The notes beneath the pieces were generated by a model. That model did no database searches and was not told the DNA's origin. It saw only the letters and a list, made by a program, of their open reading frames with translations. This document shows positions 1,950 to 19,258 of a stretch of DNA of 64,000 bases, piece after piece. The first letter of the stretch is position 1, and every line of letters begins with the position of its first letter. Location of the stretch: positions 1,605,139-1,669,138 of the forward strand of contig KB722736.1 in assembly GCA_000349905.1 (NCBI GenBank), in the 5' to 3' direction. This DNA comes from Volvariella volvacea V23 (lineage: Eukaryota; Basidiomycota; Agaricomycetes; Agaricales; Pluteaceae). Both the position numbers and the translations under genes were made by a program.

Positions 1950-3789
1950 TTATCGTAGTATCTTGCATTGCACAAAAGCCCCGTTGTCCGAGTTTCGGGT
2001 TCTGGATGACAAACCTTTTGAATTGGACTAGCGCTCAGGGAGTACTGCTCCTCTGGAGATAAGTGCCAAACTGGTGAAAAGCTGTTGTGCAAAGTTTTTC
2101 ATTCTACTTGTCCGGAGTGTCTTGTCCGGCGTGTCAAACATTTGTTTCACATACTTACTCCAGTAGCACAACGGCGCAGCTATTCTAGAAGCCGCAACGA
2201 CCACGTCTTGGATCAGGGACCGTGAGGCAGCTTATGTTGCCAGTTGGTCCGCCATTGGTCCGTCAAATAGAGTTCGAGAAAGTTGTGTGGGCAACAATAT
2301 AAAATCGGACATAATCTTATCAAACAACAAAGTTCAGAGCTCGTCAAACCTTGGCTCAGCAGATACTTCCCAGTTCCACCATGGGTTTTGAATCAAGGGT
2401 GTAAGATTCTGGGGTACGTTTTTGACTGAGCGTAGGATAAATTTTCCAAAAGGGATAGACTGCATCCGGAAAAATCTTTGTATAGACCTTAAGAAAGGAC
2501 CCCCAAATCGTGAATATTTAATCCACCACGAGGGTCATAGCACCTCGCTAAAAGGTACGGCTGTACAAGCTGGGCTAGAACTCCAACTTTTTTAGGCACC
2601 AGCAAATTTTTTCGAACGATAGAGTGGGCGAATACATCCCAGCCATTTCGACAGCAACTTGAGAGGCGGACCGCTTGGTGCGGACGACCGTCCATCAGAT
2701 CGAGTCCCAGCGCAAAGGTAACGAACCTGAAGCCCCAACAGGGAGATCTAAGCGGGGTGGCAGGGTTTTAATGGCAGTAAGAACGTCATAAGTTCAAAGT
2801 AGACCGTTGGAACGAACCATCTGGAATTTCTTAGTTTACACACTGTTTGTAGCCCCGAACAGTGTCCGCCGTCCTCGCATCTTTGTGACGGCCATCAACA
2901 TATTTTATTCCCAGTCTATTTCCTTTCCTCCCCCTCAATTTCGGTTACGTACCCCGACTGCTACCGCCTCAAACCTTTTATAACTTTGCGAGCGTGCAAG
3001 GTTATTGTGTAATGCGATGTCGTGCTCTGCGTGCACAGGTCTGTTGCACAAGTGTATTGTGATATTCGATAGGGGATGTATGCGCGCCTATCTCCGTTGA
3101 TTGCGCACATTTGCAATCTCTTGAGGTGCGCGCGCAGTCCGCTCAAACCAGAAATGTCTTGTGGCAAGTGCAGTTAGCTTTCCAACCGCGTCCAAGGCTG
3201 ATTTTGCAAGTGGGCCCGCGGGCTGGTGAAGGAGAGCAGTGGGCGAAGAACCCGGGTCATTGTGCATATCATTGGACGACCGCTGGCGCGCGCGGGGAGC
3301 GTGTCATGCACTCAGGTTGCCGTTGGGGCCAGATCAACTGAATCTCGGCGGACAGAATGGTGTGCACCACGAATGTTTCATAGCCAATAGTTACTTTTAA
3401 CTGTGGCTACGTCTGTCTAGGTGACACTCGAATATTGTGTCTGCTGAGGTCTTTGGTTGTACCTGGAGTCCCTTCGGGTAGGGAGAAATATCCCAACTGG
3501 GTCGCCCGGTATATGACGTCAGGGTTCTCAGGAGCCATGTATCCCTACATAACCTCGCGATGCGCGTGTCGTGGTGTCTAGCCTCACCCAAGACGACAAA
3601 CCTCGCTGGCTTGGACAAGCTGGCTTCATGGCTTTATTGGCTAGCCATTAAATTCGGTACGCCCTTCAGCAGGTTTCATACTACACGTCCTGGTGCGTTG
3701 CTGGCAAAGTACCCAGCCCAGTAAGCAGTTCCGGCTGCATTCATTCGCGTTTGGAGTTTAATGTGGTTTCCAAGCAGAAGTGATAGTGG
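1950..3789. other. Intergenic stretch, no gene recognised
   Basis: Only short overlapping open frames on both strands; none shows a domain, a sensible intron chain or homology that I recognise. The last few hundred bases are presumably the promoter of the RRM-YTH gene. Confidence 0.5.
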
Positions 3790-7897: not shown

Positions 7898-10413
7898 TCA
7901 GTACAGGTATCGATAAGTCTTCCTTCGCTCCAAAGCCTGCTCAAGCGTAATCCCTTTAAGTCTTGCTGCCTCCTCCACCCGAGAACGATTGGCTCCTTCC
8001 ATAGTTGCTTTATCATCCTCATCTAGCTTTTCGTTTTCTCGAATGAGGATTTGCCTCATCACTGCCAATGGCAAATAGTGTATCTGGGTCATGTCTATTG
8101 CTATTGTGAGTGAAGACTTACACAAGGCTAGGATGCTACTGAACACCAGCGCAGCGAGAGAGATCCCCATTGAAGGGTGATACTTCGGCCCCCATGAGGA
8201 TTTCCAGGTGTAGGACCCCATTCTATCGTGAATTGAATAGTAAAGCATCGCTAAGTTTAGGAAATGAAGGAAGTACGAACACATTTCCGATATTACCGCA
8301 CCCGTTGACTATGCCAATCGCAGCAGCTCTTTTGCTGTCAGGGATTATTCCTTTAGAAGAATGGAATACGATCACTAGTTGAATACGTACGCAGGCGGCC
8401 TTGAAATGGTGTTCGATACCCAAACTAACGTCATAGAAAACCCTGCAGATATGTCCAGATGTGTGTTTTGTGACACCTGATATTGACGTACCCACGTATT
8501 CGCACGCCATGAGAAACAAGGATATATATCTCCCGGCAATAGACATCATGATAGTACACAAGGCAATGACAAACCCAACAATTACCCCCCACCACCAGCC
8601 AGCAATGTGGAAGAATCGTTCTCCAGTATTGTCTGAATGGCATGATTCATTAATCCGCGAGGTATGAACGTACGTCCTCAACTGACCTGCATGCCATGCA
8701 TTGAGGCAACAAATTATTGATGCAAATATCCACGGGGGCCTAAGGGAGGGGGTGGCAATCAATCGGTAAGGATACACTGTACAGGGTGCTTCTTACACGG
8801 CCAAAAGCAGGGTAATGGTTGTGGAGAATCCCAATGTTCCAGTCAGCCTTCGAAATAGGTTAATGGTGCCAGTCGATAATTTCTAAGGATTCACAGACTT
8901 ACGTTGGAAAGAATTGGACGAAACTTAGCCCCAGCAGTTGTAAGATGGTCATAATTGCAAATATGAAAACTTTTGGATCCCGAATCGCCATTTTTATACC
9001 TGCAAATGGTCTTCTCCCGCACAGCGAGATAACGGATATGGCAGGTTGAAGGGGCTCCATGATTAAATGTGCTTACGAATCGTCGCTATCTTTGTCTACT
9101 TCGCCCGCATCCTCAGAGAGGCGAGCCTGAGCAAGTCGGCGCTCTGTGGGATCCATTCACCTAGTGTTGTGTGGCTATGATAGGTTTACTGAATGTCAAT
9201 CCTAGAGTACATCAGGATACCCACGTAATCAGGGAGTAACCACCTATAGACGACGTGGGTTATGATGAGAGTGAGTGGATATTCTTTCAACATCACCCAC
9301 ATGCTATTGAGACCAACTACTATGGTGATTGCGCCCTATCCTGGGTTTAACCTTACGTGAACAGCAAAACATGCCAAGTACCTCGATAAAGAACAGCCTG
9401 AAAACATGATTTGAGTTAGAAACCTTAAATCGAGTGCGGTGAAACCTCACCATCTCCAGGCTCGAACGCCACGTTTTCCTTCCGTATTAGACAGTATCCC
9501 TGCTGCCAATAGCTTGGTAATATCAAGTATTGCTTTTTTCGATCAATAGTTTGAGGCTTACTGCACCAAAGGCATTAGAAATAAGCAGTCCAGAATACAG
9601 GATTGCTGAGCCAATGCCAGTTCCTACCACAACGATCTCAAAATGAATGTTTTCGACACGATCGGTACGGTGATCATACCTTCTTAGTGTACCATCGTGA
9701 AAGCAGGTAAATTGCCCCCGGATAGAAGGCTGCCTCAGGCAAACCAATAAAAATCCTGCAAGCCAAAATTCCACCGAAATTGCTTATGATCTAAGTGTCG
9801 TCGAACCTTGGCTAAATAGACAATGCAGTTTTGAGCCTCCATGCTTACCCCAGTTAGAGCGCTGCCCCATAGTACGACACATCCTCCAATATATAGGGAT
9901 GGCCTACGACCCCACTGTTAGCTCGCGGCCCAGCAAATGGTAGAAGCATACTTTGAAATATAATTGAGTATCTTGCACCTGTGTTAGAAAATAGATGTGC
10001 CAAAATCAATGGTATACTAGTCACCATATTGGAGGGGATTTGTGCCGGGCAATATGTCACGAATAAGATTGCAATGACAGTTGCGTACTGCACATCTGCG
10101 AAATACTTATGACATAAGAAGCTGGAGAGGTGTTTTATACGATACCTGTGATCACTAGATCTTCCTCCATTCCTTTCAATCTTGCCATGGTCACTCCATT
10201 TCGCTAATTTAGTTATTTAGTCAATGGCACACTTGGAGGAATATCCAGCGGCTGGCTTTAATCACTGCTTACATCGATGTAATTCATTATGAATATAATG
10301 AATATTGTTGGCATCATCCGCAAATCAAGTTTCCTGACGAGCTTCCGCTCTGCTATCAACCTGTCATCGCTTTCAGCTACGGGAATGGGCTGCTCCGACG
10401 TCGTAGATTGCAT
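7898..10413 (-). CDS. MFS transporter, Dal5/allantoate permease-like (anion:cation symporter family)
   Basis: Multi-exon gene on the minus strand. The N-terminus has RLIAERKLVRKLDLRMMP then the first membrane helix ending MNYIDV, followed by RNGVTMARLKGMEEDLVIT. Later pieces read PAQIPSNM, LYIGGCVVLWGSALTG, ACRIFIGLPEAAFYPG and IYLLSRWYTKK. Next come SAILYSGLLISNAFGA, RYISLFLMACEYVG, SKRAAAIGIVNGCGNIGN and SYIWKSSWGPKYHPSMG. The C-terminal tail is ENEKLDEDDKATMEGANRSRV ending RKTYRYLY. These are the classic landmarks of fungal Dal5-family permeases for allantoate, vitamins or organic anions at the plasma membrane. I chose the start at 10413 because it is the first ATG in frame with the cytosolic pre-helix. 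About ten short introns are needed; no frame break is evident. Substrate cannot be told from sequence. Confidence 0.82.
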
Positions 10414-11046
10414 ATCTGCACGAGCTATGATTAGGTAGAGTGAAACAATGGAAGACCATATGGCGGGTACCAGACGTCGAAGAAGTGATCACGGTGCCAG
10501 TGGACTGGTGCTCCTTGTCTGTGTCTGAGCCCATAGTTGATTGCGTTGGGTGCTGGGAGATCGCAGAGCTGGTATGTCGCAAGCAAGCCCACTTTCTATC
10601 TAGCAAGGAACCTCATAATGGTCACGGCACTTAGTAGAAGGATTGACCCATATAGCTCAACACGATTGAGTCCAAAAATAACTTAGATTCTTGATGGAAT
10701 TCAGGGCTCGTGATAAGACCATAGGCAGCCACAACCTAGTGAGCTTGACTTCTAGGGAATGAGAAGCTGATGTTCTGCTATCGTTAGAGCTTTGGACTTA
10801 CTGCTTAAAGCTGGCGCGTACTACATGCATGACCAGTAAGAAGCATGTCCGCGGGCCCTAGCCAAAATTTTCGTGTCCTATGGCCAATCTGAGGGCTGAC
10901 TGATGGGTAGCAACAACTCGGAATGTGCAAGAGCCGGGTTGGCGAATTCGAAGTTACTATGCGTGCAGATGAAGTTTGATGATCAAGCCCCCAGGTTAGT
11001 GCCACCTACAAGAACTTGAAGCAAAATAGAGGCAAAGTGTATTATT
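10414..11046. other. Intergenic stretch, no gene recognised
   Basis: No recognisable domain on either strand. Short minus-strand coding-like words occur around 10800-11000 but do not join into a convincing exon. Confidence 0.35.
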
Positions 11047-11480
11047 TCATTTCAAATTCACATCCGCCGCATCAGTGGTGTTCATGACACACAATAAAAC
11101 TAAGGACGAATAAAGGGATGTGGAGCAGTCTTTGAGGTTGAACATCTCTATAAGCCAAGACCAAAAGCAGGTGGAATGGAAGCCTACCCAGAAGGATGAG
11201 CTCGTGACATACCCAATAGCAAGATCAAAAGTGCGACTGGTCATCAAGTGAACATAAGCTGGATGTTTGAAATAGAGATCGTAATCTGCCGTCACAGGAT
11301 TTGCTGGGATAATGCCAATTGAGGACATTTCCCCATGTGCTGTATCCCACAAAGTGTCAATCGTGAGTACTCCAACAAGTTCATCGACTTGTAGCATTCC
11401 ACGCATGATGACAGCACGTCCAGTTCATTATTGAGATTAATGTTGTGCGATCTACACAAATGCATACGGAGTAAACTCAT
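11047..11480 (-). other. Possible exon(s) of an unrecognised minus-strand gene
   Basis: A minus-strand frame at 11047-11406 encodes a coding-like stretch (TLWDTAHGEMSSIGIIPANP then DYDLYFKHPAYVHLM). It ends near a usable GT donor around 11200, so the downstream translation may be intronic. I do not recognise the family, find no reliable start, and cannot rule out a decayed gene. It sits between the permease and the glucanase genes. Confidence 0.25.
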
Positions 11481-11804
11481 TTTGATAGCAGGTATTGAAC
11501 ATTGTACTCGGTGGGGAGGGGGGAAAGGGAGGAGAAGGTGTTGTGTCTGGTATATAAACCTAAAAAGGGAACTATTCTCAAAAGTTTAATAAGTTCGAAA
11601 AATTGAAAGGACATAAGGCATCAATGAAAGCAAATATCGAAAGCAAAGCAAAAACTCAGCAATATCTAGGATAGCGGGTCCATATACAAGGGCGGTTTGG
11701 GAAGATGCAACTACTGTCCAGACTCAGTAACCAATGCGGAATGCGAGTGTTTTCGTAAGCATAGGAGCGCCTCAGCGCGTGTTAGTAGTCATGAGGTTAG
11801 TATT

Positions 11805-14800
11805 TTATGCTCCCGTGCAGGGACTGCTGGGTAGGGTTGCGTTGACAGCGTCCCAAGCGCTAACAGGTGGAATCAGCAAAAGTAGATACAATATTACACG
11901 AATATACGTACTTGGGATAGGGACAGCCAGCGACGGGACTACAAAGAACATCAATGTAAGCATCCGAGATCCAAAAGTTGGTTATACTACTTACACATAA
12001 GCAAGACTGTTATCTGCATCGTTATTCCATCCGTCACCCACGATGGCGTTTGGCGCAGAAGTGAACGTCGGAGCGAACAATGTTCTTATGGTACCAGTAG
12101 GCGTATAGGTGGGAAGCAGGGCAATTTGTGTTCCAGTAAATGATGGGGAGATGGTTGCAGGCGGGAAAGAGTGCATAGACGTTTGCCAGTCCGCCACCGA
12201 ACCAGCACCGAACTATTAACGCAAGTGGGGGTGAATTCAATTTGTATATAAGCATCAAATGGAATGACGATCACGTACACCACCAGTGGCAGTTGAAGGG
12301 TATTGACCATCAAAAGGTTGGGTCTCGTTCAACATGCTTGCACAATGACCAATAGCTTCACGAGGATCTATGAATAGTGTCAATACATTGACCGCCAGGT
12401 CTATGCGACTATTAATGGGCTTGCCTCTTGGGATCCAACCCATCTCCAAACCCAATTTGTAATGCCACATAGGACAAGATGAAGTTCCTAACACTGATGA
12501 GTCGCCGATCTTCCAGGTCCAGTAAAAGAAGTTTTGCAATGCGTCCATTGATGCAAGTGTGACTTCTCTCATGCTGTCAATGAGTGTCTGATTCCATGAC
12601 TAAACGACAGTGAGCACGATCCAGGTTGACTAAAGGTGGGGAAACTTACACTCCAGTTGTCCCAGATGTCGCAATTTGGGTTAGAAGGAGTTGATCCAAT
12701 GCCGCTCAGCCTAAGGGGAGCAGAAGAACGTAGTTAGTACATGTTCAGAACCGAACGAGATAAATAAGGATTACGCCCGATAAGAAACTCAGGTGGCGAA
12801 GAAGCCAGTAGAAAAAAGGGTGAGGACAGCATTACAGACAGCATAGGGTGTACATAGCGTCGCGTGGGGCACCAAAAACGAAAACAAAAAACATTGAAAA
12901 GAAAGCGACGTACCAGTAGCCACAGTCGTTGATGGCAGCCGAGAACTCTCCGCCAAGGGTAACGCCAAATACTCTCTGAGAATAATTCGTCGCAACGGCC
13001 CAGTCGCTGTAATTGATAACCCCGTTACGTATACCGCGCGTTGATAAGACGTGGAAGATGGATAACGTTGAACGGCCACCCGGTCAGTAACCGAAAGAAT
13101 ACAGGAAGGCTGTGCGTGGACATACCATGGTCTTCGAACCATTTGGTCCAGGCTGGTAAGGCAATCGTCGGCATACTAAAATCGTCCAAGGTTTCACTGT
13201 TTACTCACGGTGTGGTGGTATCACGCATGAACGCCAAGTACTAGGGAAATGGAGTTGAGTTTGCGATTGCCATGAGTTGTGGAAGTGCGATGGTACGGTT
13301 CCGTGGTGAAAGGTTCCGAACCACGGGGGAGACGGAGGAATTAGTGATATGTTTTGGATGTGTGATATACGGAAAAGATCGCCAACGTTGTCGGTTCATG
13401 AGCGATATGATTAAGAGTCGGAGATAGGAGCATGGTTATTTTAGGATGGTGGACAAACAAAAGGATAGATTACTTACGGGATGTTGATCCAAAGCGAGAC
13501 GGTCAGCTCCCGACAAAAATCTACCGGGGTGAAGGGGGAAAAGGTTAGAAGCGGCGTTGTACGAGCGTGAACAGATTGAACAGATAAGAATCGGCTATGT
13601 TAGGAGCAGATTCTCATACTACCCCTTCCGCAGTGGAATGGAAGAGTAGTTTCAACAGGTGATTTGAATGCGCGGAGCGGCATTGCTCGATTCACGCCAC
13701 TTGACGGGATCAAACACGGGATAGACTTACCCTTCCCAGATCGCAGGCTGAATGTTAGGGAATTAAGTGGGTCAGAAAGGTAATACAGTGGGGGAGAAGG
13801 GGACATACTCCTTGGAAACCTTCGTGAATGGCGATGTATGGGCCATTGCCAGGGCCAATGCCACTACAATCGTCAAGTCAGAACCAAAGACAGGGTAACG
13901 CCAGAAAGCTCACGTACGTTGCACCTCTAATAGCCTGATAGGCAGCCCAATAGAAACTTTGTACTGGGCCTTCGCCGACTGTGTCCCATAGAATTTCGTT
14001 GACGATGCCGACGCTATCAACGAAGCCAGATGACATCAATGCACATGTCAGGAGGGCCAGCGGCTCCAAGGGACGATACTCACACAGGTACGACGTCCCG
14101 GTATTGTTCCTGACTGACGAATTGGGTGATAATCCGAAGATAGGTAAGTGTTCTTTGCGCGTTCGCAAGACCCATGACTCCATGCATGCTAAAATAGCAT
14201 TAATTAGTAACGCTCAACAAAGAAATGTAGGCCTTGGGTTTGGCTCACAAGTTGACACTTCCGCCTAATCCAGCACACAAAAGTCGCAATAAATGTCACC
14301 AGATAGGTGATATTACACACGGGTGAGATGCCAACCACAGAATGATGATGTGTACCAGGGACGGGAAACAAGGGGGGTCGAACGTAAACAAATGTGGTGT
14401 GGCGAGTCAGATGATCAGAAGAACGCTCGAGATAATGGGACTTCCTTACTCTTTCCGGAATGGTTCTATAGATTTAGTACATGGCAAGCACCAACAGTGT
14501 TATGCCACGCCCACAGCGGCGTATGGAGAACATAGATGACAGTTCATTTTGAGGTTCGAGATTTTGTGAAAAAGGGTGTTGATTAAGGCAAGAATAGGAT
14601 ATTTGAGGTCAAGGGACCAAATAAAAATGGAAGCAGACAGGAGTCAGATTATGATCGAGGACAGCAATAGAGGTGATTGAATGGAAAAAGGAATTAAGGG
14701 CTCTGTGTCAGATAGCCCATACGCGAAACCCGCAAGGATTCGAGTGACCGAAAGAGAAAGCACTCACCCATCCATTTTGACTACCAGGTAGGGCGTGGAG

Positions 14801-16538
14801 GTCAAGATAGATCCGGAGGCCGTACTTCCTGGCCCATTGAATCCTGAAGGTGGGAATAAGTTCAGTATCATTAGAAACATAGAAGTAGGACGGGTGAATT
14901 ATAGTCTCGAATATATAACTTACGCTTTCAAAAAGTAGGTCCACGACGTTCCAACAAGGAAGGGCTCATCATTTATGGTCTCAATAGCCCAGAATCCAAT
15001 TGGAATCCGAACCCAGTTCAGTCCGGCGGCGGCGATGTCAGCAAAATCACGTTCGGTCTGTTGCAGCAATTACAAAATCATTAGTTCTGCTCACACAAAG
15101 GCACGGCAAAAGAGGCCACATACAATAAAGGTCTTATAATGTTCCTCCATTTCTGTTGCGAGGTTCTCCCCCATGGCCACCGATAACGACCATTCATCCA
15201 AAATAGGCGTCGCATTTTGATTTATGTATCGTTCGTATAATTCCGGACAGATGAACGGTTCGGTTACTATATCAATAACCAGATGTAAGGATGACCAGCA
15301 GGATGGGAAAAGAATCGAGTCAGAACAGCAGGACTAGCAAGCAGATGACAGAAGAATAGACACGTACCTAGCCACCCTCTAGGAACGGAAAGCATTCAAT
15401 GCGTGTGGCGAAACAGCGCAATAGACAATAATGGTCAGCAACGGTGCCTTAAGATTTCCTAGAAAGCCATAACATCCGGATATACCGGCAGGTCCAAGGA
15501 AACGCGTGAATGCGATTCTCCCCGATTGAAAGGTCGCGCCCAACCTGGGCGCCGCCCGCAGGGCTTCAATGGAGGATGCAACAAAACCCGCCGGCGATAT
15601 CCAAAGACCAGAGTTGTGAGGAAGCGCAAAAGCCTTACCCGAGATTGACGCCTCTAGCAATGTTCGCACTCCAGTCCCACTCTTCGCCTCCACCGACTCG
15701 CGGACTCCAGCTTTGCGCCCTACCGCCAGCGGCGAAGGGACTGGCGGGATCATCTGCCCACTCGCCGCCAAACTCGTTTATATAAACAAAAGTTGAGCCG
15801 TCGTCCATTGTAACAGTACTTCCATTGCCGCCTGATGTTAGAGCGCCGTGACTAGAACTTGAACCGTTTGAAGAATCATTGTTCCTTCTAACGACTAGGA
15901 CGACAGGAACAGTTACAGCGACGACTATAACTGCAACAATGACAACTGCAAAGAAAAGTATTCTGTTACGCTTCATGCTTTTAAGATTGTGACGTCTTGC
16001 AGATACGCGTGTATGTGTTGAGAGGCCCGTTGAAATTTGCGTGCCGTTCCCCCGTCCCGTGTTGTTGTTACGATACTGTCGTGGCGAAGTCGCGAAGCGG
16101 AAGGAAGCGAAGAGGACGGCGTATATCGCAGAGGACGAAAAGTTGAACGGCGAGAAGAGTGATATACGGTGGTGTACCGGGTGACGAATGGAGTCAATTG
16201 GAGGCAGTGTAAGCCAATGTGTTGGTTAATCGCGCCCAAAGTGGTTTATCGCGAGATTTGGACACAGGGACCGAGGCGAGGAAAGCGGAGACACAAAAAG
16301 ATGAGTAAATATAGTCAGCGGACAGGCTACGATGAGATAGGAGGGTTAAATAAAATTTGTGCTCTTTGCGAGTGCAGTAAATGATGGGGGAAGACAAGAA
16401 GCAGGGAGCGGCAAATAAACTACGTACGATATCGTCCTCAACGTTCTTAGGGAACTCCCGTTCATGACTTGAGGGAGCACTAGCGGCCGGCGTCAACATT
16501 TCGTGTTCATTTCTCATGTAACCTCTGGTGTTGGACAT
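11805..16538 (-). CDS. Glucan 1,3-beta-glucosidase (exo-beta-1,3-glucanase), GH5_9, membrane anchored
   Basis: A long, intron-rich minus-strand gene. The first exon encodes a short cytosolic leader (MSNTRGYMRNEHEMLTPAAS). It is followed near 15976 by a type II membrane anchor (ILFFAVVIVAVIVVAVTVPV) and a Ser/Gly stalk. The catalytic domain begins near DWSANIARGVNLGGW and includes PFICPELYE, NWVRIPIGFWAI, ARKYGLRIYLDLHALPGSQNG and TYLRIITQFVSQEQYRDVVP. It continues with FGIVNEI (acid/base Glu), GNGPYIAIHEGFQG, and LGGEFSAAINDCGYW (nucleophile Glu). A C-terminal part with PNCDIWDNWS and FFYWTWKIG closes the barrel. Stop at 11805 follows SPCTGA after two small exons. The enzyme trims beta-1,3-glucan in the wall. 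The exact join between the leader exon and the anchor exon is uncertain. Confidence 0.85.
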
Positions 16539-18159
16539 GGTGACAGCTTTAAGGGCGGGCCCTGGGCTTGGAGCTGAGGTTGACGTCCTTTATTACTTTG
16601 AACAGCCAGGCTATGATATAGAACAAGGTGGCTGTCCAGACTCAACGGGAGGAGTCGAGGAGGGAGCTTGAAGGAAAGGAGGAATGAACCTTGAAACCGT
16701 AGACATCGGAATGAAATTCCCATAGATCCTACTTCAACGTAGGGCCACGGGCGACGTAACGTGAAACGGCCCCTCTTTCGACGCAAGGCTGACCATCAGG
16801 AATGCACCGTTCCCCTTCCATACAGGGTAAAGAGAATATATCGTATCTTGCCGAGTGCCGTTAGTCGATGGGGCATCGACCAACTGTGATAGTCTAGAGT
16901 GGTGTGCTTACGGTTCTAGCATGCCGAAGATAACGCGGGCACGAGGCTTCCAATGTCACTCGATTCCAACCTCCGTTTGCTGTAAAACGGGTGAAATAGC
17001 CCTACTCTGGCCTCACCAGAAACGAACGTGGACGGTGACATTCGTCCGACACGAAAGATGCGCCTCTGCAGGTTTGGGAGGATAATTATAGGGATAGTGC
17101 CACTTGGCAGGCCCTTGACGTAGTCCATTCAGGAAAGCAACAGTGTCGATGGGATGGCTGTGCTTTGACCGCAAACGACTGCGATAAGCTGATCGTCGGC
17201 GTTCGTTTGAGCTTCTTTTGATGTTTTACATACACACCAGGGTTACCGATCGCGCTGCCGCCACATCGCAGCGTGATACAGAACTCCGAGTCAGCCTTCC
17301 CCCAACGCGAAAGAGACTCGTGAGCTCAAGGATACGCCATGATACAGGTTGGAGACGTGGGCGGCGAAGTGATAGTTGCTGGATTCTCACCGCACAGCGA
17401 ACTCCGGTTCGGGAGAAACGGCCACCCGAGTCCGATATTGACAGTGTAATGAATAACTTCCAGCGCCAGAGCGGACCAGAAGCAAAAGGAATTTGCACCT
17501 AGCACGAGAGACGGCAAGTCAAGCCCATACCTTGTTGCATGCATTTCCAGGGCGGAGCACACTATCGCCGTTTAAATGGATCAGAGGGAGCGCAGTTCGG
17601 TCGTTGAACGTGAACCTTCCAGGTTCGTGCTGCATCAACGTCGAGCCATGCCCGCTTTCCCAATACACCGGCGCACAACTCCTATCCTGCGCGTTTGGGG
17701 CTGACGAAGCAGTACTTGCCCCTTCAAACAGTAGCACCATGCAATACATGCAAGTCCAAGCAGTCGCGTTGACATTCTAGCAATCGATTAACCTTTACTC
17801 GCTGTATATCCATGATTCCTTAAGGTATTCGGGTCAGTGCTCCTTAGCGCTACGCAATAGGCGCTCAAATATCGGAAGCTCTTCCTTACAATGATTTGAG
17901 GTACTAAAATCGCAACAGGAAAAGCAAAGCAAGTCTTCCATTAGTACGAATCTTGGGACTCGTTTTCAGAAGCTACGACGCGCGGGGAAGCCCTTCGTTG
18001 GACTACTTCTTGTTGACATGCATGGTACGCACTCCAGCTAGGACCAGTGAGCGCGGTCTTGCAGCTTGAAGAGGGGCATAAAGAAGTGAAACATAGGATA
18101 TGCTCCCGTGTTTCTTCAGCTCTTCACCTCACAATAATATCCCCTAGAATCGCACAGTC
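16539..18159. other. Intergenic stretch upstream of the glucanase and viperin-like genes
   Basis: These 1.6 kb separate two divergently transcribed genes. Open frames on both strands are short and mutually overlapping and show no domain. It probably holds the promoters of both neighbours. Confidence 0.4.
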
Positions 18160-19258
18160 ATGACCGCTCCCCTTCACGATCCTTCTGGGCGTCTCGTCCC
18201 TCTATCAGTCAACTACTTCCCTTCCCGCCAATGCAACTATTCCTGCAAATTCTGCTTCCACACCGCCACCTCGTCCACCATCCTCTCGCTCGAAATGGCC
18301 AAGCACGGTCTCACCCTCCTCGCCCAGTCTGGCATGAAGAAGCTCAACATCTCGGGCGGGGAACCGTTCCTCCACCCGAAATTCATTGGCGAGCTCATCA
18401 AATTCGCAAAGAAGGACTTGGGGCTGGAGAGCACCGGGATCATCTGCAACGGGTCCAAAGTGACACTCGGGTGGCTAGAGAAGTATGGCGAGTATCTGGA
18501 CATTATGGGCGTCTCTTGTGAATCCTTTGACGATGAAACCAACGAGCTGATCGGGAGGCGGGAAGAGGGCAGGGCCACCGGTGCCAGCACTGGAGGGAAA
18601 AGGGTGATGCACAAGAACAAGGTCTTCCAAATCGCCGACTGGTGCCGTGACCGGGGCATCATGTTCAAACTGAACAAAGTCGTCAACCGGTACAACTGGG
18701 AAGAAGACATGAACGACAGCATCGAGGCCCTGGACCCTTTCAGGTGGAAGGTCGGTAATCTCCCTTGAGCGGACCATGATGACGAGCACTGAAGCTGCTT
18801 TCCACCTGACCGCTACCTCCTGATAAATAACCAGGTATTTCAAACCTTGCTGCTTGAGGGTGAGAATATAGGTCCCAAGGCCTTGCGCGACGCCCGTGAA
18901 ATGGTCGTTACCAAAGAAGAGTTCCAAGCTTTTCTCGATCGCCACTCCACCCAGACATGTCTTGTGCCAGAGGACAATGACGCGATGGAAAATTCCTACC
19001 TTCTACTTGACGAGCACATGAGGTCAGTGGCCAGCCTGAGTGTCCCTTCCAGGACAACTAGAGTTTTCGCTAACTTGCGCATAAATGCTTTGTAGGTTCT
19101 TGAACTGCAAAGGTGGAAAGAAAGTTCCCGGCAGAAGCATTCTGGACATTGGGGTTCAGACAGCCCTTGAGGATGCAGGATGGGAGATTGAGACCTTCAT
19201 TGATCGCGGTGGAGTGTTTGAATGGCAAAGGGTCAAAGCAGAAGACTTGGAGTGGTAG
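18160..19258 (+). CDS. Viperin-like radical SAM enzyme (RSAD2 family; predicted ddhNTP synthase)
   Basis: Three exons (18160-18750, 18835-19022, 19096-19258) give 313 aa with phases that match exactly. Near residue 20 is SVNYFPSRQCNYSCKFCFH, containing the CxxxCxxC motif that binds the radical SAM 4Fe-4S cluster. It is followed by MKKLNISGGEPFLHP (the GGEP SAM-binding motif), GVSCESFDD, and GIMFKLNKVVNRYNWEEDM. The C-terminal viperin signature follows: RWKVFQTLLLEGEN, EFQAFLDRH, SYLLLDEHMRFLNC, SILDIGVQTALEDAGW and FIDRGGVFEW. Animal viperin converts CTP to the chain terminator ddhCTP; fungal and bacterial homologues make related 3'-deoxy-3',4'-didehydro nucleotides. The amphipathic N-terminal helix of animal viperin is absent, so the protein is probably cytosolic. 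No adjacent nucleotide kinase was seen. Family assignment is firm; substrate and antiviral role are inferred. Confidence 0.92.

Follow-up and report, generated by a model that had tools for sequence, protein, structure and literature searches.

The window analysed here is a stretch of 64,000 nucleotides of DNA from Volvariella volvacea V23 (contig KB722736.1, positions 1,605,139 to 1,669,138 of the forward strand; coordinates below count from its first letter). The gene in question encodes a viperin (RSAD2) homologue: it runs on the plus strand from the ATG at 18160 to the TAG ending at 19258, and its three exons specify a protein of 313 amino acids (Table 1). A sequence-only reading had called this homologue complete, and the claim holds: the start and stop codons lie where it placed them, and the structure and profile matches are far above chance. 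Over 100% of its length, the protein is 99% identical to AX16_004557, a hypothetical protein of V. volvacea strain WC 439; the two differences, given from the window to AX16_004557, are Ile to Val at 278 and Ile to Thr at 291.

Table 1. Features of the window viperin gene and of its product
Feature	Position	Strand	Description
Viperin-B exon 1	18160..18750	+	Residues 1-197; 591-bp open frame; Radical_SAM Pfam match
Short N-terminus MTAPLHDPSGRL	18160..18195	+	No hydrophobic stretch
Phe20	18217..18219	+	Phe in 27/27 clade-A, 10/10 clade-B and 9/9 ascomycete-clade rows
CxxxCxxC [4Fe-4S] motif	18232..18255	+	Residues 25-32 (C25, C29, C32)
GGEP motif	18355..18366	+	Residues 66-69
Glu121 (GAA)	18520..18522	+	Asp in 226/226 other viperins; also Glu in strain WC 439
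Insert of about 10 residues (around 138-147)	18571..18600	+	Missing in the 11 other clade-B rows printed
Lys173	18676..18678	+	Ser/Thr in 128/128 fetched proteins with a letter and in 83/86 prokaryotic rows; the other 3 Ile
Intron 1	18751..18834	+	84 bp, GT..AG, phase 0, between RWK and VFQ
Viperin-B exon 2	18835..19022	+	Residues 198-259 and part of 260
Tyr252	18997..18999	+	Tyr in 140/140 fetched and 86/86 prokaryotic other rows
Intron 2	19023..19095	+	73 bp, GT..AG, phase 2, within the Arg260 codon of HMRFLN
Viperin-B exon 3	19096..19258	+	Includes the stop TAG, 19256-19258
C-terminal block SILDIGVQ...RGGVFEW	19136..19225	+	Residues 274-303
C-terminal Leu-Glu-Trp	19247..19255	+	Fits the tail consensus [LIM][DES][WF]

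Nine viperin sequences of the PDB match the protein with E values from 2.9e-102 to 5.4e-90, the NF038283 profile gives 230 bits (cut-off 180), and the PADLOC profile for prokaryotic viperins (pVips) gives an E value of 6e-64. Homology to the solved viperins extends over the full length, and the viperin fold is predicted for the 99%-identical AX16_004557 (P0001 in our protein set). The sequence-only reading had stated that the diagnostic elements of viperin are present. The CxxxCxxC motif, GGEP, the NKVVNRYNWEEDM block (residues 172-184) and the SILDIGVQ...RGGVFEW block were indeed found; the string NKVVN, in contrast, is atypical, because N172 is followed by Ser or Thr in each of the 128 other fetched proteins that have a letter there. 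Conservation was assessed over 226 rows, namely 140 of the 157 fetched proteins (those of at least 280 amino acids, the near-identical P0001 excluded) and 86 of 87 prokaryotic rows; the protein lists hold the best 120 of 1748 and the best 120 of 1082 matches, and statements of rarity hold for the rows compared. The same residue occurs in at least 95% of the 226 rows at 31 positions, among which are all seven residues of CxxxCxxC and GGEP, and the window protein keeps 30 of the 31. Tyr252 presumably corresponds to the catalytic Tyr302 of mouse viperin. The consensus that the last three residues fit is that of the cytosolic Fe-S-assembly tail. Such a C-terminus occurs in 116 of the 157 fetched viperins vs none of 80 prokaryotic loci, a distribution that would be in line with a eukaryotic tail for Fe-S delivery.

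The window gene has a companion. When the V. volvacea genome (35.39 Mb in 54 contigs) was searched with the protein, a second viperin gene was found on contig C4 (minus strand, 5625-4417 of locus L018). Its product differs from AX16_001741 at one of 329 residues, and AX16_001741 is 56% identical to the window protein. Both introns of the window gene seem to be matched in place and phase by the AX16_001741 gene in the tblastn alignment, one after RWK and the other inside the Arg of M-R-F-L-N. Unlike the window gene, the second gene has five exons and encodes Asp at 121, Thr at 173 and Thr at 176, together with a longer loop, ENTGAETGSLR, and a short, mildly hydrophobic N-terminus.

The two copies fall into sister clades of Agaricomycete proteins, AX16_001741 in clade A and the window protein in clade B. 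In a tree of 71 rows (the window protein and 70 proteins selected from the 157 fetched), clade A comprises 28 rows (support 100/97) and clade B 12 rows (98/93), and the two are united at 99/94; in a tree of 53 rows, which omits 18 that are long, incomplete, basal or environmental, clade A (27 rows) and clade B (10 rows) each received 100/98. Some of the fetched proteins are environmental; they were counted as eukaryotic on the basis of their tree position or their similarity. A constraint that made the Volvariella A copy the sister of the window protein was rejected by the approximately unbiased (AU) test (p-AU 0.0003), which was named after the tree had been viewed. On this value and the 56% identity to the A copy, we reject a recent duplication within Volvariella. 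One A and one B copy were found in each of six named species: V. volvacea, Collybia nuda, Pluteus cervinus, Dentipellis sp., Amylostereum chailletii and Agrocybe pediades. The orders Agaricales and Russulales are both represented in clade A and in clade B; therefore, the duplication seems to be older than the split of these orders, and clade B seems to have been retained patchily. The viperins of Tulasnella, Ceratobasidium and Rhizoctonia, which belong to the Cantharellales, nest beside those of Boletales in clade A (100/97) and not at its base, and this placement suggests transfer or further hidden paralogy.

The sequence-only reading had named phylogeny as a test of its identification, and the outcome agrees with it: the window protein lies among eukaryotic viperins, apart from the sampled prokaryotic viperins and from MoaA, the last being represented by one row in one of the trees. 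The tree with prokaryotic rows contains many long prokaryotic branches, and its deep order was not relied on. Horizontal gain from prokaryotes is unsupported, since the window protein sits among fungal viperins. A single-sequence scan of prokaryote genomes gave a relative in 0 of 19 stretches, and an alignment-based scan did recover relatives. A passage in PMC10732462 places animal and fungal viperins in one clade and holds that eukaryotic viperins probably date to the last eukaryotic common ancestor. The weak MoaA matches of the window protein (39 bits for a profile and 27 bits for a PDB sequence) would be expected of a MoaA-like or other radical S-adenosylmethionine (SAM) enzyme merely resembling viperin; this identity is refuted by the homology, the profiles, the tree position and the predicted fold together.

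The N-terminal regions were compared next to the core. Mouse viperin has a membrane helix, and the sequence-only reading held that the window protein is without the animal one. This is right for the gene model: 12-13 residues stand ahead of the core, and neither a hydrophobic stretch nor an animal-type membrane or amphipathic helix was found in them. The gene may have an unannotated upstream exon. Of the 28 clade-A rows, 23 have 20-28 N-terminal residues, which often begin in the manner of M-[DN]-W-L; their hydrophobicity maxima span 0.48-1.01, the Volvariella copy reaching 0.68. Two of the other five are shorter (16 and 7 residues), one has 87 residues and looks mis-annotated, one is partial, and one lacks the motif. 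Of the 12 clade-B rows, 7, including the window protein, have 11-26 residues; two have 49 (Pluteus and Artomyces), one environmental row has 55 with a hydrophobic start, and two truncated models could not be scored. Over the clade, the six N-termini of sufficient length for scoring reach maxima of 0.05-0.78. In each of the nine ascomycete-clade rows (one environmental), the core is preceded by 43-69 residues, among them an 18-residue stretch of mean hydrophobicity above 1.0. Of the 14 animal-clade rows, 6 could not be scored; 4 of the 8 scored ones exceed this value, and one of the 8 has only 12 residues. The ranges of clades A and B overlap, so that a membrane location of the clade-A enzyme is no more than a suggestion.

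Two residues of the window protein, Glu121 and Lys173, occupy positions that are invariant or nearly so elsewhere, and the activity or specificity may therefore differ; the enzyme is perhaps one with shifted substrate use. Glu121 lies two residues beyond the fourth strand of the model (115-119); in radical-SAM enzymes, the segment that follows this strand can touch the ribose of SAM. Lys173 lies within the strand 168-175 of the model, adjoining the conserved K170 and N172; near position 170, where 128 letters were counted, several gene models are without a piece, probably through annotation errors. As a control, at least one departure among the 31 positions was found in 15 of the 140 fetched and 39 of the 86 prokaryotic rows (54 of 226), none of them at 121. 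At the 99 positions conserved to at least 90% in the fetched proteins, the window protein shows one further difference only, I278 for Val. Neither Glu121 nor Lys173 is found in the nine other aligned clade-B rows, so that both belong to the Volvariella branch only; AX16_004557 shares the two residues and the loop insert. In both V. volvacea strains, 17 loop residues separate GR (133) from H151, vs 6-8 in most viperins. Loops of at least 13 residues occur in five other proteins (P0030, P0049, P0070, P0092 and P0098); the insert is thus not unique, and a long loop arose more than once. The insert is of low confidence in the model (mean predicted local distance difference test score 55 for residues 141-150). 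Asp at 121 and Thr at 173 were also seen in six viperin-like frames on metagenomic viral contigs of IMG/VR (L107, L108, L109, L110, L111 and L112; six of 80 listed viral-class loci examined), which retain most conserved residues and could be prophage or virus-borne defence genes.

These differences can be read as a functional split in which the ancestral job and a membrane-leaning N-terminus remain with clade A, and the Volvariella B copy is a soluble enzyme whose substrate or chemistry has shifted through D121E, S/T173K and perhaps the disordered insert. We regard such a split as possible but on balance unlikely. Asp in 226 of 226 rows at 121 and Ser/Thr in 128 of 128 at 173 make the changes conspicuous, but D to E is conservative, neither substitution occurs in the other clade-B rows (0 of 9), and single departures from the 31 positions are not rare. 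Mildly hydrophobic N-termini of 20-28 residues in 23 of 28 clade-A rows, vs 11-26 residues in 7 of 12 clade-B rows, and the presence of both copies in the six species fit a division of labour; however, the hydrophobicity maxima overlap (23 A rows and six B rows), and the five other long-loop proteins have loops about as long as the insert. The same changes might instead reflect relaxed constraint in a clade-B copy that is redundant with A and is losing its function, as might the end branch of 0.42 (vs 0.23 in Hypsizygus, 0.11 in Lyophyllum and 0.21 in Collybia). This is improbable: the Pluteus clade-B branch is as long (0.48) without these two changes, and the window gene is intact in two strains, having kept its GT..AG splice sites, the C-terminal tail and 30 of the 31 conserved residues.

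We therefore favour, with a probability of about 75%, the reading that the window gene encodes a working and probably soluble, cytosolic viperin, that is, a radical-SAM nucleotide dehydratase forming 3'-deoxy-3',4'-didehydro nucleoside triphosphates (ddhNTPs), and that it is the clade-B copy of an old Agaricomycete pair. The gene structure, the motifs, the phylogeny, the predicted fold and the absence of a hydrophobic N-terminal stretch from the gene model come from the present analysis, and the chemistry is taken from other viperins; the cytosolic location, the antiviral role and the substrate, which would be cytidine triphosphate and/or uridine triphosphate, are inferred. In the proposed mechanism, a [4Fe-4S] cluster on C25, C29 and C32 would cleave SAM, and the resulting 5'-deoxyadenosyl radical would remove a ribose hydrogen from the nucleoside triphosphate (NTP) bound by the conserved K170, N172, R195 and K197, which we take to bind the NTP as in mouse viperin. 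Loss of the 3'-hydroxyl and a proton-coupled electron step at Tyr252 would then give the ddhNTP, which could terminate the RNA chains of viral polymerases. PMC8124187 reviews the flexibility of fungal viperin and describes a tyrosine of the active site that takes part in the proton-coupled electron step.

Some observations weigh against this reading. The NCBIfam viperin model TIGR04278 matches with an E value of 6.4e-114, and its 380.6 bits fall short of the curated cut-off of 450; only 7 of the 12 clade-B rows have the [LIM][DES][WF] tail; and two positions that are otherwise kept, or nearly so, are changed to Glu121 and Lys173. Six-frame Pfam scans of 3.0-26.0 kb of the window, which can miss genes broken up by introns, gave no kinase domain, as the sequence-only reading had stated for nucleotide kinases beside the gene, and no recognised defence domain, the defence library not having been run on the neighbours. 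Such a neighbourhood would also suit a ddh-nucleotide made for host metabolism or as a natural product instead of for antiviral defence within the cell, and a passage in PMC9642334 hypothesises antiviral natural products for the Thielavia enzyme. We consider this role rather unlikely, as the same scans gave no biosynthetic-cluster domains either, and the animal and prokaryotic viperins are described as antiviral in part of PMC10732462. It is plausible that the window viperin is a native fungal antiviral nucleotide synthase acting against RNA mycoviruses; Volvariella appears as a double-stranded RNA (dsRNA) virus host in a listing in PMC10224137. A more speculative proposal, which we think has a small chance of being right, is a two-viperin mushroom system with a membrane-associated A and a soluble B enzyme that form different products, the Volvariella B enzyme (D121E, K173) making a ddh-nucleotide or related product that is unique among viperins and antiviral against RNA mycoviruses.

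The viperin family is already known in fungi, and what merits following up is the pairing of the genes, together with the short N-terminus and the changes at 121 and 173. In the literature searched, where most subscription papers were beyond reach, we found neither a paper joining viperin with basidiomycetes nor a test of viperin's role in fungi; a paper on a yeast mycovirus cites viperin in its references only, and the others on viperin and mycoviruses are by title not on fungal viperin. Viperin connects animal and bacterial antiviral immunity, and fungi carry many persistent RNA viruses. With two copies in one cultivated mushroom, from a genus listed as a dsRNA virus host, the antiviral question becomes testable, the A copy serving as an internal control. 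D121E and K173 offer a natural probe of two near-invariant viperin positions.

A further site that separates groups of viperins is residue 20, which we take to be His79 of mouse viperin. It is Phe in the tallied Agaricomycete and ascomycete rows, except for enzyme 1 of Trichoderma virens, and His in all 14 animal-clade rows and in all 83 prokaryotic rows with a letter. Over the 141 fetched proteins aligned, 97 have Phe, 37 His and 4 another residue, and 3 have gaps. The two chytrid-type fungi also have His. In T. virens the residue is His in enzyme 1 and Phe in enzyme 2; a crystal structure of the F40H variant of enzyme 2 exists (9dfu, from the entry title), and others have therefore treated this site as worth testing.

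The window enzyme can be compared with other known viperins. The crystallised T. virens viperin-like enzymes 1 and 2 (7n7i, 9dgw; 9dfn) have, unlike the window enzyme, Asp and Thr at 121 and 173. A link of their pairing to the A/B pair was rejected, since the two group together (SH-like approximate likelihood ratio test 98) in a quick tree in which the animal outgroup is not one side of any branch; the T. virens duplication thus appears to be separate from that of the Agaricomycetes. Mouse viperin RSAD2 (6q2p, 6q2q, 5vsl) has Asp and Ser where the window protein has E121 and K173, and His at the residue-20 site. For the enzyme TtRSAD2 of the ascomycete Thielavia terrestris, viperin chemistry is reported in a passage of PMC9642334. 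The pVips share the core motifs with the window protein but occupy a separate part of the tree. Thirteen of the 15 plasmid records matched look like viperins (26-36% identity over 77-93% of the query); 12 of them are annotated as viperin and one as a moaA/nifB/pqqE family protein. An annotated deoxynucleoside kinase is the next listed gene in 2 of the 7 fetched plasmid pVip loci (L019 and L021); no kinase was matched in 3.0-26.0 kb of the window.

Around the window viperin, the scans of 3.0-26.0 kb recovered YTH/RRM, KIN17 and phosphatidylserine synthase domains besides viperin itself. The gene had been said to stand between a glucanase and KIN17; Pfam confirmed KIN17, but the glucanase is a possible fragment only. 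The piece in question (15976-15638, minus strand), which presumably resembles the 5' end of an exo-beta-1,3-glucanase, ends with ARGVNLG followed by a stop and may be a broken gene; the scans gave no glycosyl-hydrolase domain at E 0.001. The region of 8000-18000 upstream of the viperin gene, with no six-frame Pfam match and no open frame longer than 196 amino acids, is possibly repeat-derived. Elsewhere in the genome, three matches to the thymidylate-kinase family lie within 0.7 kb on contig C15 and are probably one gene; Pfam gave 0 families there and so did not confirm the match, and the genome may yet contain a CMPK2-like gene. In the 9.9 kb of L018 around the second viperin, the Pfam scan gave no kinase domain and found NUDIX, amino-acid transporter and SUZ domains, the NUDIX-domain stretch (about 2638-2970, plus strand) lying approximately 1.4 kb from that viperin gene.
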